Source: Aliarcobacter cryaerophilus (GTDB taxonomy: Bacteria; Campylobacterota; Campylobacteria; Campylobacterales; Arcobacteraceae). Taken from it: DNA of 64,000 nt. The stretch lies in assembly GCF_014352935.1 (NCBI RefSeq), contig NZ_CP060694.1, forward strand, positions 1,426,001 through 1,490,000, given 5' to 3'. Of this stretch, positions 1,580-6,047 are shown piece by piece; position 1 is the first letter of the stretch; every line of letters begins with the position of its first letter. A model generated the notes under the pieces. It was not told the origin of the DNA. It searched no databases and saw nothing but the letters and a program-made list of their open reading frames with translations. The translations under genes were made by a program, and so were the position numbers.

Positions 1580-2410
1580 TTACCAGTTATTTTTCATCAA
1601 ATCTTGTTCAAACATTGCTTGAGTTAAAACATCATAACCTTTTAGCTCTTCACTTGTAGTTACAACCCATTTATTTAAACCTTCCATTTGCATCATTTTT
1701 TTGATTATTGGTTCATTTGGATCTTGCGAAAGCATCATATCTACAAATGTTTTTTTTACTTTCTCATCTAAAGAATTAAGTGCTGTAAAATTACAATGGC
1801 AATAACCCTCACTAGTGTAAAAAGACTCTATTTCACCTGCTGGAAATAGTCCTTCTTCAAGTACTCTAACCCAAGTACTAATACCAATCGCACCTGCATC
1901 AAGTTTATCATTTTTTATTGCTTCAAGTACATCAAATTCACTTCTTCCTGTATCTCCATGTTTTCCTAAGTCAGAATTGAATTTAACTATTTCAATATCT
2001 TTGATAGATTCACCTAATTCATTTTGTAAATATTTTAGAGGTAAAATTGCAGCTTGTGCTGAATCTGCACTTCCAAGTCCAAACTTTTTACCTTTTAAAT
2101 CTTGAACTGATTTTATACCACTTTTTGCTTTTGTAATAAATACTGATTTAAAATCAATATCTGTATCTCTCATCAAAAGTGCTTGTGCTTTATGATTACT
2201 TAATTCATAAGTTCTCACCCAAGCAACATTTGTATTCCAAGCTATATCAATTTTTCCACTTAATAAATACTCAATTTGTGCTTCATAATTTGAAAAAAGA
2301 ACATAATCAAGTCTTACACCATTATCATTAAAATAATCTCTTATGATATCCCAAATCGTTACGATTTTTGGGTCATAAGCAACTGAACCTACAACTATTG
2401 GTTTTTGCAT
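1580..2410 (-). CDS. PhnD-like periplasmic-binding-fold protein without a signal peptide
   Basis: Type 2 periplasmic-binding fold of the PhnD/SsuA/transferrin superfamily. Recognisable stretches include the lobe-1 start IVVGSVAYDPK, the NYEAQIEYLLSGKIDIAWNTNVAW segment (given in part), and the hinge VQDLKGKKFGLGSADSAQ. Family members normally bind phosphonate, phosphite or sulfonate-type anions for an ABC importer. Here there is no signal peptide or lipobox: the fold starts at about residue 4. ATG has a clear AAGGAGAAAAA Shine-Dalgarno, so the start is secure. No ABC permease or ATPase gene is adjacent. It is last in an operon with a flavoprotein and a diiron protein, 9 bases after the flavoprotein gene. 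I infer a cytoplasmic sensor or substrate-carrier role. Confidence 0.75.
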   Translation of the reverse strand: MQKPIVVGSVAYDPKIVTIWDIIRDYFNDNGVRLDYVLFSNYEAQIEYLLSGKIDIAWNTNVAWVRTYELSNHKAQALLMRDTDIDFKSVFITKAKSGIKSVQDLKGKKFGLGSADSAQAAILPLKYLQNELGESIKDIEIVKFNSDLGKHGDTGRSEFDVLEAIKNDKLDAGAIGISTWVRVLEEGLFPAGEIESFYTSEGYCHCNFTALNSLDEKVKKTFVDMMLSQDPNEPIIKKMMQMEGLNKWVVTTSEELKGYDVLTQAMFEQDLMKNNW

Positions 2411-2419
2411 TTTTTCTCC

Positions 2420-3547
2420 TTAAATTATTTCTTGATTTGTTAAAGCTTTTCCAAGCCAAGTTGTAAGAACATCAGTACTTGGTGCCATAACAGCAGCAGC
2501 TAGAGAATCTCTTAAAAGTCTTTCTATATTTATTCTTTTGGCATAAGCAGTTCCTCCACCAATCTTCATGGCAGTTGTACAAACATCAACAGCCATAGAT
2601 GAAGCATGAATTCTTGCTGCTAATACATTTGCTTGTGCCATTGGGTCTGCTTCAATTACACTTTTTGCTGCACTTAATGTAAAGTATTTTGCACTTGCAG
2701 CTTTTGAATAGATATCTGAAATATGATTTTGAACAGTTGGAATACCACAAAGTGCTGAATTATCACTATATTTTCTATTCATTGAGTAATCAATTATTGA
2801 ATTACTCGCATTTAATGCAACTCCACTATAAACAGCTGCTAATCCCATTATAAAAAATGGACCAACAGTATTAAATATTTGATCTAATCCACTTCCTGCA
2901 GCTCCAATTCTAAATCTTTCATCAATTTTTACATTTTCTAAAATCATTGGGCAAGAAGCATTTCCTCTCATTCCAAGTCCATTCCAAGCACTATGTTCAA
3001 AATTAATTCCTGCTAAATCTTTTGAAACCAGCCAATTATCTAGTCCTTCACTATCAAATGAGTTTGCATCAATTAAATAATAATCTGCATATTGTGCTGA
3101 TGTAACAAAACTTTTTCTTCCATTCATACTTAAAATTTGTCCATCTTTAGTAACTTTGATTTCTGGATTATAAAAATGAGTTCCTGTACCACTTTCACTA
3201 TATGCAAGTGCTAACATAATTTCACCATTTGCAATTTTTGGTAAAAACTCTTTTTTTAACTCTTCACTTCCATGAGTTGCTAAACAATTTGTAGCAACAT
3301 TATGCATCATATAGCACAATGCTGTTGTTGCACAATAATTTGCAAATGCTAAAACAGTTTGCGTATGTTCATAAAAACCAAGATCCATTCCTCCGTAATC
3401 TTTTGGAACTAAAAGTCCTGTTAGTTTTTTATCTTTTATAGCTTCAAAACTTTCAAATGGGAATCTTGCTTCACTATCAACAACATCTGTAAATGGTGCA
3501 ATATTTTTTTTTGCAAAATCTAACATTTCATTATATAAATTTGACAT
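2420..3547 (-). CDS. Acyl-CoA dehydrogenase-like flavoprotein lacking the catalytic glutamate
   Basis: 375 residues with the acyl-CoA dehydrogenase fold: N-terminal helical domain with LLVPKDYGGMDLG, middle beta-domain with ALAYSESGTGTH (FAD contact), and C-terminal helical domain with MKIGGGTAYA and LLRDSLAAAV (about 344-353). In the dehydrogenases the RDA helix is followed by the catalytic base in Y-E-G-T; here the aligned stretch is MAPSTD (about 354-359), so the glutamate is missing. Family members without this base include flavin monooxygenases of the DszC/SfnB type and nitroalkane-oxidase-like enzymes. Middle gene of a three-gene operon, 12 bases after the diiron protein gene. The substrate is unknown; oxidation or oxygenation of a small organosulfur, organophosphorus or nitro compound would fit. 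Confidence 0.72.
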   Translation of the reverse strand: MSNLYNEMLDFAKKNIAPFTDVVDSEARFPFESFEAIKDKKLTGLLVPKDYGGMDLGFYEHTQTVLAFANYCATTALCYMMHNVATNCLATHGSEELKKEFLPKIANGEIMLALAYSESGTGTHFYNPEIKVTKDGQILSMNGRKSFVTSAQYADYYLIDANSFDSEGLDNWLVSKDLAGINFEHSAWNGLGMRGNASCPMILENVKIDERFRIGAAGSGLDQIFNTVGPFFIMGLAAVYSGVALNASNSIIDYSMNRKYSDNSALCGIPTVQNHISDIYSKAASAKYFTLSAAKSVIEADPMAQANVLAARIHASSMAVDVCTTAMKIGGGTAYAKRINIERLLRDSLAAAVMAPSTDVLTTWLGKALTNQEII

Positions 3548-3559
3548 CTAATTTTCCTA

Positions 3560-4822
3560 TTACATAAAATTTGGGGTGTGTACTTTGGAGATATCATTTG
3601 CTAAATCTTCATCCATACCTATATTTATCAATCTTTTTACTCTATTTTCATTCATTTTTTGTTTTAAATCTTCAACTAAATCAAATCCTTTTTTATAGTC
3701 ATTTGGCTCATCGCTTCCACCTGCAAGAATTGCTAAAGATTCAAGTAATAAAGATGATTCACTACTTATTTCATCCATAAACTCTTTTCTTTTAAAAGCA
3801 CTGTTTTTTAGAGCATTTATCCTATTTGGATTTTGTTCAATGGCAGATTTTACATGTTCAATCCCATAAGCAACATGTCTCATTTCATCTCTTTTTGATA
3901 GTCTTATAATCTTTTTTGTAGCTTCATCTGGCATATATTTTTCTAAAAAAGTTAATAAATCAACAAAAGTTCCTTCTCCCATAACATGAAGTAAAAAAGA
4001 GCTTTTAATATAATCATCTTCTTTAAATAATGAAAAAAGAGAACGCTGAGTAACTTCACTTGAATATTGAAATCCTCCACCATTTGCATTAGCACGTTTA
4101 GTAAATACTTCAATGTGTCTTGCTTCATCATTCATTAGTGATGATAAAAAAAGTGGAACTTCCATATAATATGGATTTATTTTACTTATAAATTTTCCAG
4201 GAATATATAAAGCTGAAAATTCATTTTCAACTAAATATGTCATAATCTGACAAATTGCCTTTTCTAAAACTGGATTAAACTCAGGAATTTCATTCCAAGG
4301 AATATCTGTTGTTGCATTCCATTGTAAATTTTTTCCTTCTTCATATAAAACTGAGATTGGGTTTGACCAAACTTGTTCCTTAAAAGATAATTCAAAGTCG
4401 TAAATAGGACTGTTTTCTTGAGTTATAATTCCTCTTGTTAAAAGTCCATTGTTTTCTGGTGCTTTAATTAATATTTCATCACTTAAGTTCAAATCTTTTA
4501 GTTTTGGATTTGATGATGAGATTCCTTGCATCTTGTTCCCCCATGATGCTTTTTGTAAATAACTATTTTTTACTAGTTTTTGTATTTTATACGAGTATTG
4601 TTGTTTTAAATTTTCTCTTCCTAAATATAAATGACCTCTTAACTTTGCCCAACCACGAAGTTCTGTTTCAATATTGGCTTTTTGTGAAACAATTTCTATT
4701 ATTTCATGAGTATTAGCAAGTAAAAAAGCATTTTCAAGTTTTAAAAATAAGGCTTTTGATGGTGGTATATCACCTGTAAATATAGATATACAGTGATTTA
4801 GATTATTCAAATGAATCTCCAA
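3560..4822 (-). CDS. TusA/SirA-like domain fused to a ferritin-like diiron domain
   Basis: 420 residues in two parts. Residues about 20-70 resemble the TusA/SirA fold (helix with PPSKALFLKLEN, then EIIEIVSQ and the W-A-K-L-R-G-H strand), but the CPxP cysteine of sulfur carriers is absent. Residues about 185-330 form a ferritin-like four-helix bundle with a full carboxylate-bridged diiron ligand set: E199 or E201, E233-x-x-H236, E283, E313-x-x-H316. This predicts an O2-activating oxidase or oxygenase site. First gene of the operon. The frame opens at a TTG (4822); a second TTG at 4810 has GGAG six bases upstream and is the better start. I do not know a named enzyme with this architecture. Confidence 0.7.
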   Translation of the reverse strand: MEIHLNNLNHCISIFTGDIPPSKALFLKLENAFLLANTHEIIEIVSQKANIETELRGWAKLRGHLYLGRENLKQQYSYKIQKLVKNSYLQKASWGNKMQGISSSNPKLKDLNLSDEILIKAPENNGLLTRGIITQENSPIYDFELSFKEQVWSNPISVLYEEGKNLQWNATTDIPWNEIPEFNPVLEKAICQIMTYLVENEFSALYIPGKFISKINPYYMEVPLFLSSLMNDEARHIEVFTKRANANGGGFQYSSEVTQRSLFSLFKEDDYIKSSFLLHVMGEGTFVDLLTFLEKYMPDEATKKIIRLSKRDEMRHVAYGIEHVKSAIEQNPNRINALKNSAFKRKEFMDEISSESSLLLESLAILAGGSDEPNDYKKGFDLVEDLKQKMNENRVKRLINIGMDEDLANDISKVHTPNFM

Positions 4823-4823
4823 A

Positions 4824-4852
4824 ATTATACTTTAATTTTGACCATTCAGTAA
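4824..4852 (-). promoter_or_regulatory. Candidate sigma70 promoter of the diiron/flavoprotein operon
   Basis: On the minus strand a perfect -10 TATAAT (4829-4824) follows a weak -35 TTACTG (4852-4847) with a 17-base spacer. A start site near 4817 would lie between the two possible TTG starts and supports the downstream TTG at 4810. The -35 is poor, as expected of an activator-dependent promoter. Confidence 0.45.
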
Positions 4853-4872
4853 ATTTAAAATTCATTGATGGA

Positions 4873-4887
4873 ATCTCAACCTGAGAT
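4873..4887. promoter_or_regulatory. Perfect inverted repeat, candidate LysR-type operator
   Basis: ATCTCAACCTGAGAT is a perfect 6-3-6 palindrome and contains the T-N11-A pattern of LysR-type regulator sites. Its centre lies about 63 bases upstream of the inferred transcription start, where the primary site of LysR activators usually sits (near -65). No regulator gene lies beside it. The palindrome is seen directly; its role is inferred. Confidence 0.4.
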
Positions 4888-5097: not shown

Positions 5098-5376
5098 TTG
5101 ATTACTATACAAATGAAACTAAAAGATATTATTGAAAAGATAATGATTCCAGAATCTAAAGCTTTTTTAAATGAATTAGATGAAATGATAAAAAACAATA
5201 GCTCAAGTGAAGATGATTTAGAGGCAAAAAAAGATATGGAATATTTTTTAGAAGAACTTCAAACTATCTTAAAATCAATTGATAATAATCAAATAAATGA
5301 TAAAGAAGCTGAAGAAATTTATGAAAAAATAAATTTTATGCTAGAAATGCATCATAATGAACATTTAGATAATTAA
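5098..5376 (+). CDS. Small acidic helical protein of unknown function
   Basis: 92 residues, very rich in E, D, K, N and I, with no cysteine, no signal peptide and no membrane segment. The residue pattern (for example KKDMEYFLEELQTILKSID) suggests two or three amphipathic helices. I do not recognise the family. The TTG start at 5098 is preceded by TAAGGA at good spacing, and a TATAAT (5017-5022) lies upstream; an in-frame ATG at 5113 is a weaker alternative. It stands alone between the operon promoter and the mobile-element remnants. It is a real gene judging by Shine-Dalgarno, length and coding-like composition. Confidence 0.6.
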   Translation: MITIQMKLKDIIEKIMIPESKAFLNELDEMIKNNSSSEDDLEAKKDMEYFLEELQTILKSIDNNQINDKEAEEIYEKINFMLEMHHNEHLDN

Positions 5377-5697: not shown

Positions 5698-5934
5698 ATT
5701 TACCAAACTAGGCATAGCTTTGCAAGCAATATGTTAAGCAATAAAGAAGATATATTTTGAGTTTAAAAAATGTTAGGACATAAAAATCCAAATATAACTT
5801 TAGAGAAATATTCAAAATATATAAAAAGTAATAGAACCAAAAAACAAGCTTTATGGATACAGAAAACTATGTTTTTGTACAAAATTAACACAGTAGTATT
5901 ATTAGATATTGATTCTATCGAAATCCACAAATAA
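5698..5934 (+). pseudogene. C-terminal remnant of a tyrosine recombinase (integrase)
   Basis: Read in one frame, the plus strand gives TRHSFASNML, an in-frame TGA (5758-5760) and TAA (5764-5766), then MLGHKNPNITLEKYSKYI and a tail ending at TAA 5932-5934. The R-H of TRHSFAS, the LGH and the Y of EKYS are the box II arginine/histidine, the second histidine and the catalytic tyrosine region of phage-type integrases. Two nonsense codons sit between them, and everything N-terminal of box II is gone. The fragment abuts the ParA-like remnant, so a deletion probably joined the two. It cannot encode an active enzyme. Confidence 0.75.
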
Positions 5935-6047
5935 TATACAATAATAAGTAAAACTTCTAATTGTAATAACTTTAATTTTAATGTTATTAAGCATAAAAAA
6001 AAGAAAAAATAGCTAATATTTCTTTCTTAAAATTTAAAGGAGAAAAA

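Follow-up and report, generated by a model that had tools for sequence, protein, structure and literature searches.

A conserved three-gene cassette encoding a predicted diiron protein, a glutamate-less flavoprotein and a leaderless PhnD-fold protein co-occurs with SelD

Three adjacent genes of Aliarcobacter cryaerophilus, lying within a window of 64,000 nucleotides (contig NZ_CP060694.1, positions 1,426,001 to 1,490,000) of a complete 2.02 Mb genome, encode a TusA-like domain fused to a predicted diiron domain (gene 1), a flavoprotein of the acyl-CoA dehydrogenase (ACAD) fold without the catalytic glutamate (gene 2), and a PhnD-fold protein without a signal peptide (gene 3). Here we report that these genes form a conserved, co-inherited cassette whose presence is accompanied almost strictly by SelD, independent of whether the genome uses selenium through SelA or SelU. 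We tentatively propose that the cassette encodes a single pathway, cytoplasmic and dependent on O2, whose substrate is a small organochalcogen compound and which most likely frees selenium for SelD. So far as literature searches reach, the cassette is undescribed as a system; it is built of known folds, and its core pair, the ACAD and PhnD-fold genes, is shared with a catalogued and unexplained gene cluster.

A co-inherited cassette accompanied by SelD

A scan of 84,980 species returned 509 relatives of gene 3, and the locus counts given here cover the best 80 of these 509. The diiron gene is present in 51 of the 80 loci and adjoins the ACAD and PhnD-fold genes in every one of the 51, which upholds, beyond close relatives, the original prediction from the window alone that the three families work together. 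Its hosts are Aliarcobacter and other Arcobacteraceae, Helicobacter, Sulfuricurvum, Brachyspira, Bacillus, Cohnella, Paenibacillus and Ammoniphilus, together with one Armatimonadota metagenome-assembled genome (MAG) and one acidobacterial MAG (where the gene order is ACAD, PhnD-fold, diiron), so that members of at least five phyla are represented (Campylobacterota, Brachyspira, Bacilli, Armatimonadota and Acidobacteriota). Within Aliarcobacter the cassette is patchy, and a diiron gene 99% identical to gene 1 is present in an Aliarcobacter MAG.

The pairwise distance matrices of the three proteins correlate (Mantel r 0.79-0.93), and the genes flanking the diiron cassette vary between lineages. 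Because the Brachyspira copies (L065, L066, L072 and L074) branch among those of Campylobacterota, and the Armatimonadota copy among those of Bacilli, the cassette probably moves horizontally as a whole unit; the placement of the Brachyspira copies suggests transfer between gut bacteria. A phage origin of the diiron protein was rejected, as PHROGs gave no match, and so was plasmid carriage of its gene, since plasmids carried no full relative, only partial matches of 23-26%. Riboswitch control was likewise rejected, with no Rfam match in six diiron-type loci. One Helicobacter-like cassette lies on a contig assigned to a 'Clostridia' MAG (L063), which is probably mis-binned.

SelD scored above cut-off in all 27 Campylobacterota cassette genomes, compared with 155 of 200 genomes in the sample of this phylum (hypergeometric p about 6e-4); these 27 comprise 24 with the diiron or presumed diiron type and 3 with the MetE type described below, the type being read directly only in fetched loci. 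Among close relatives of good quality, the corresponding figures are 16/16 and 61/90 (p about 1e-3), and in the sample of the order of Cohnella they are 4/4 and 100/200, which alone is not significant. Overall, SelD was found in 49 of the 54 diiron-type genomes tested (a few counted twice), and all cassette genomes with a stated completeness of at least 90% have it. These statistics weigh in favour of a selenium link but do not decide it. The related actinobacterial cassettes of the Rv1678-Rv1681 type were considered as SelD-dependent too and rejected, SelD being present in just 9 of 25 genomes, and the link therefore belongs to the diiron version.

The selenium users in these genomes differ: six Bacilli have SelU but no SelA, ten other genomes have SelA but no SelU, the remainder have both, and none of the 32 genomes tested has neither. 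Because SelA and SelU use varies while SelD stays common, supply to SelD fits better than competition for its product. The cassette might instead act downstream of SelD: the PhnD-fold protein would bind selenophosphate, an anion resembling a phosphonate, and the oxidases would build a selenium-containing metabolite. This would agree with the additional selD that Sulfuricurvum carries next to the cassette, with the phosphite, methylphosphonate and phosphate ligands of the structures nearest to gene 3, and with the retained phosphonate-type histidine (H151). A stand-alone trait should, however, yield some cassette genomes that have SelD and neither SelA nor SelU, and there were none among the 32; the SSTSG anion loop is lost in gene 3, and the ACAD and PhnD-fold core exists without SelD; we consider such a role improbable.

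Gene context adds further signals. In Sulfuricurvum, selD is followed by the diiron, ACAD and PhnD-fold genes, a ferredoxin, a PhsA/selenate-reductase-like molybdoenzyme and, further on, selB-selA; two of these genomes (G293 and G524) carry a second selD elsewhere. Four Aliarcobacter-type relatives have, beside the cassette, a sulfate exporter of the YeiH family together with a LysR regulator whose closest relatives are YeiE and the LysR family of selenium metabolism. In Miltoncostaea (L051), selB-selA-selD lies about 6-10 kb from an ACAD and PhnD-fold pair. Like the SelD-linked YedE/YedF (FdhT/FdhU), LysR_Se and DUF3343 families (PMC5322559), the cassette is one whose presence implies SelD, and YedF shares a TusA/SirA-like domain with gene 1; unlike these families, the cassette has oxidase domains. 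Neither that survey nor a 2022 review (PMC9312934) was found to list the cassette among its candidates, and our literature search found no publication joining selenophosphate, diiron and acyl-CoA dehydrogenase.

Predicted sites of the three proteins

In the AlphaFold model of gene 1 (mean predicted local distance difference test score, pLDDT, 80.8), residues 12-81 form a TusA-like domain of beta-alpha-beta-alpha-beta-beta topology and residues 184-330 a four-helix bundle. Among 34 homologues from five phyla, E199, E201, H236, E283, E313 and H316 are unchanged in all and E233 is kept in 33; the conserved residues and the model together give the E..ExxH..E..ExxH arrangement on a four-helix bundle that marks ferritin-like dimetal oxidases. 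Gene 1 thus carries an intact predicted diiron site, as had been anticipated from two ExxH motifs in a four-helix pattern following a TusA-like fold without its cysteine. The TusA Cys-Pro motif, with the catalytic Cys of CPxP, is missing from all 34 homologues, so that gene 1 does not qualify as a TusA sulfurtransferase, and its resemblance to TusA is weak in the window protein (Pfam E 0.13) and clear in one homologue (E 2.6e-5).

The solved structures nearest to gene 1 are R2lox, the azoxy synthase VlmB and aldehyde-deformylating oxygenases, with modest scores (E 8e-5 to 3e-4). Two ExxH motifs and a carboxylate dimetal site on four helices are common to gene 1, R2lox and the VlmB/AurF-type N-oxygenases; gene 1 differs from the others in its N-terminal TusA domain, in an identity of 13-19%, and in forming an operon with ACAD and PhnD-fold genes. 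At 32 bits against a cut-off of 194, it falls outside the R2lox family of NCBIfam.

Gene 2 contains all ACAD domains (E 1e-12 to 1e-21). Its MAPS motif aligns with the catalytic YEGT of acyl-CoA dehydrogenases, in agreement with the original reading of MAPST in place of E-G-T. The alignment of gene 2 shows no conserved glutamate at the isovaleryl-type (IVD) position either, leaving both known catalytic positions, that of medium-chain acyl-CoA dehydrogenase (MCAD) and that of IVD, without one. The alpha subunit of electron-transfer flavoprotein (ETF) was not found in any of 16 Campylobacterota cassette genomes tested, the complete window genome included. ETF is present in all four Brachyspira and Bacilli cassette genomes tested, where it perhaps serves other uses. 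Because both the catalytic glutamate and ETF are missing, a beta-oxidation or ETF-linked dehydrogenase role was rejected for Campylobacterota, where gene 2 looks like a monooxygenase-type enzyme; to this extent the monooxygenase-like character first suggested for it holds, as a resemblance.

The best named relative of gene 2 is Rv1679_FadE16 (NF049984; E 5.5e-80), although its 269 bits lie below the cut-off of 600 for membership. Its other ACAD relatives include SfnB, DszC and 3-sulfinopropanoyl-CoA desulfinase. SfnB and DszC are ACAD-fold flavoproteins that open C-S bonds alongside an oxygenase in sulfur scavenging. Gene 2 shares with them the fold without the catalytic glutamate, but scores far short of both families (94 bits for SfnB, cut-off 431; 38 bits for DszC, cut-off 850).

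Gene 3 has a phosphonate-binding domain (E 4.6e-29) and a confident PhnD-type model (pLDDT 93.4), and, as the window alone had suggested, it lacks a leader; in the aligned homologues, too, the protein starts with the fold itself. The closest structures are PhnD1/PtxB with bound phosphite or methylphosphonate, and phosphate binders are also among the nearest. Invariant residues are D55, W58, N59, R81, D82, D84, D116, S117, H151, D153, E158, H205 and C206. Compared with its transporter relatives, gene 3 keeps the binding histidine (H151), while the SSTSG anion loop has become DSAQA and DY has become the invariant H205-C206. Because the PhnD-like pocket is remodelled in this way, phosphonate binding by gene 3 is not to be assumed.

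Gene 3 is leaderless and the unit holds no ATP-binding cassette (ABC) genes, which sets it apart from the exported phosphonate-binding proteins of ABC transporters. Its best named relative is the Rv1680 SBP-like family (NF049985; E 1.6e-96), with 323 bits against a membership cut-off of 400. TIGR04553, a putative selenate ABC transporter binding protein family, matches at E 1.2e-24; it and PhnD1/PtxB share with gene 3 the fold and the motifs RDxDxxFxSxFI, GS..S and G-H-D, and differ from it in having a signal peptide and an ABC partner, and SSTSG and DY where gene 3 has DSAQA and HC. In Sphaerotilus, a transporter binding protein of the TIGR04553 family sits in an mnmH-ABC-SBP-selD operon. Arsenic chemistry was considered, as ArrX and AioX share the gene 3 fold, and no arsenic genes were seen recurring beside the unit. 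In one locus (L037), the gene 3 match falls in two pieces of one open frame, with a possible insertion within the protein.

Two other roles for the cassette turn on gene 3. Its similarity to PhnD/PtxB led the original prediction to offer oxidation of an organophosphorus compound, which we now hold to be very improbable: the sole partners to recur in different lineages belong to the three cassette types, C-P lyase, phosphonatase and a phosphonate transporter were not seen among them, and the pocket is remodelled. Alternatively, gene 3 could be an enzyme, a repurposed fold like that of Thi5 or MqnA, working in the biosynthesis of a cofactor or metabolite in which the two oxidases catalyse further steps. 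Its invariant polar residues (H205-C206 and several Asp) exceed the needs of a binder, it matches Pfam NMT1/THI5 (E 5e-10) and Thi5 structures (E 7e-13), and it comes without signal peptide or transporter. Anion binders are nevertheless closer to its fold by ten orders of magnitude, and no lysine such as Thi5 uses is invariant across the three cassette types, so that an enzymatic role has a low probability.

Related cassettes and genomic surroundings

The ACAD and PhnD-fold pair was also found without the diiron gene in two further cassettes. Common in actinobacteria, mycobacteria among them, is the Rv1678-Rv1681 type, in which a DoxX-like membrane protein and a radical SAM protein flank the pair; its NCBIfam entries (NF049986, NF049984, NF049985 and NF049973) are named without function. 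The initial statement that no named system has this set was thus nearly right, except that NCBIfam does name the actinobacterial core pair, Rv1679/Rv1680. Both cassettes have adjacent, homologous ACAD and PhnD-like genes, Glu-less and leaderless respectively, with identities of about 32-35% (ACAD) and 42-46% (PhnD-like). The actinobacterial cassette differs in its DoxX-like and radical SAM partners, its missing diiron gene and its usual lack of SelD; conversely, no such membrane protein or radical SAM neighbours occur in diiron-type loci, which lie outside the Rv1678-Rv1681 cluster. No functional study of Rv1678-Rv1681 came to light in the titles, abstracts and term counts of papers that mention these genes.

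In three Campylobacterota genomes, genes for a MetE-core protein and an OsmC protein come after the pair. By inspection against the residues given in PMC7857596, the MetE-core partner retains the residues for zinc and homocysteine known from methionine synthases, and this variant is possibly an additional system, either a folate-independent methionine synthase or a demethylase. Extended to all cassettes, this would amount to methyl-group salvage, the pair handling a methylated compound whose methyl group is passed to homocysteine in the MetE-core variant or oxidised off in the diiron variant; MesD/MesX, an O2-dependent core methionine synthase, offers a precedent (PMC7857596). With the MetE-core variant seen in just three genomes, and SelD not explained by methyl salvage itself, we regard this as quite improbable.

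In the window, the three genes are separated by gaps of 12 bases (genes 1 and 2) and 9 bases (genes 2 and 3), in accordance with the minus-strand organisation first described, and the open reading frames (ORFs) of genes 3 and 2 encode 276 and 375 amino acids. The end point of 4887 originally given did not stand, since no ORF of gene 1 extends so far: its outermost start is TTG 4822 (3560-4822; 420 amino acids). TTG 4810 appears the likelier start, because GGAG lies 6 bases upstream and a relative (L046, MNNQNHC...) has ATG at the matching point. The acidic 92-residue ORF near the cassette (Table 1) reaches no family cut-off. A nearby remnant reading MLGHKNPNITLEKYSKYIKSNRTK... looks, on inspection by eye, like the C terminus of a tyrosine recombinase and may be the mark of an old insertion.

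Table 1. Cassette genes, related loci and nearby features; positions refer to the window unless a locus or genome handle is given
Feature	Position	Strand	Remark
Gene 1: cysteine-less TusA-like and predicted ferritin-like diiron domain, R2lox/VlmB-like fold	3560..4810	-	likelier start
Gene 2: ACAD-fold flavoprotein without catalytic Glu; sister of Rv1679_FadE16	2420..3547	-	profile scores
Gene 3: leaderless cytoplasmic PhnD-fold protein; sister of Rv1680 SBP-like	1580..2410	-	profile scores
Rv1678-Rv1681-type cassette (DoxX-like, ACAD, PhnD-fold, radical SAM)	L049 9940-13814; L050 9907-12855; L100-L133		common in actinobacteria
ACAD and PhnD-fold genes, then MetE-core and OsmC protein	L033 4516-8218; L034 5073-8595; L036 5521-9140		three Campylobacterota genomes
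YeiH-family sulfate exporter and LysR regulator	L044 9555-11552; L045; L046; L055		beside cassette
Gene 3 match in two pieces	L037 4082-7552; G162:C4:47661-48530		one open frame
Acidic ORF	5098-5376	+	beside cassette promoter region
Recombinase-like remnant	5770-5935	+	between cassette and cytochrome c gene

Substrate and direction of the pathway

An organoselenium substrate is proposed because the parts resemble sulfur-scavenging toolkits and because of the link to SelD. The diiron domain and the Glu-less flavoprotein would oxidise the compound at the chalcogen or at an adjacent methyl or alkyl group, in the manner of the diiron and flavin monooxygenases that desulfurise dimethyl sulfide and dibenzothiophene. 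The leaderless PhnD-fold protein would capture the compound or its oxidised, anionic product, and the cysteine-less TusA domain would serve as a docking or holding domain, not as a persulfide carrier. Released selenium could then be reduced by thiols and passed to SelD to give selenophosphate. Monooxygenase chemistry, a chalcogen substrate and supply to SelD, rather than use of it, are what we infer. The O2-dependent pathway of the original prediction is thereby retained, with its predicted diiron site and monooxygenase-like flavoprotein, whereas its organophosphorus option found no context; the signals are those of a chalcogen, namely SelD co-occurrence, the selD-cassette-selB-selA island of Sulfuricurvum, and the YeiH exporter with its YeiE-like regulator.

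The same oxidative pathway might instead serve sulfur or general organosulfur scavenging, SelD reflecting no more than lifestyle (microaerobic growth, formate dehydrogenase or selenouridine). The presence of SfnB, DszC and 3-sulfinopropanoyl-CoA desulfinase among the ACAD relatives would suit this reading, as would the sulfur proteins represented by the TusA fold and the YeiH and YeiE neighbours, and the occurrence of the Rv-type core without SelD. A single lifestyle is insufficient, however, to explain a SelD association that holds both in SelU-only Bacilli and in SelA-only Campylobacterota, and selD adjoins the cassette in Sulfuricurvum; we therefore judge the sulfur reading unlikely.

Several observations weigh against selenium supply as well. 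SelD is missing from 5 of the 54 diiron-type genomes (four MAGs and one fragmented Brachyspira draft), its background in Campylobacterota is high (78%), and the genomes are not independent. The low SelD count of the Rv-type genomes means that the ACAD and PhnD-fold pair itself needs no selenium, and direct selD linkage is confined to Sulfuricurvum, plus selABD near an Rv-type core in one actinobacterium. The unit includes no transporter, gene 3 scores no real edge for TIGR04553 (87 bits) over the phosphate/phosphonate family TIGR01098 (86 bits), and substrate and direction rest on inference. A more specific version of selenium supply is possible but doubtful: a dedicated O2-dependent acquisition pathway in which a binding-protein fold of ancient origin, relocated to the cytoplasm, holds an organoselenium compound that the TusA-diiron oxygenase and Glu-less ACAD protein cut to feed SelD. 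On this view, Rv1678-Rv1681 of Mycobacterium tuberculosis would be the radical-SAM equivalent.

How bacteria acquire selenium selectively is an open question, and according to a 2022 review (PMC9312934) no transport system with high affinity for selenium has yet been found. A mobile three-gene unit whose presence implies SelD offers a concrete candidate for the selenium supply step. At the same time, the unexplained tuberculosis genes Rv1679/Rv1680 gain relatives whose partners differ, and their chemistry is thereby narrowed down to that of a flavoprotein and cytoplasmic binder core with interchangeable third enzymes (diiron, radical SAM or zinc methyltransferase).

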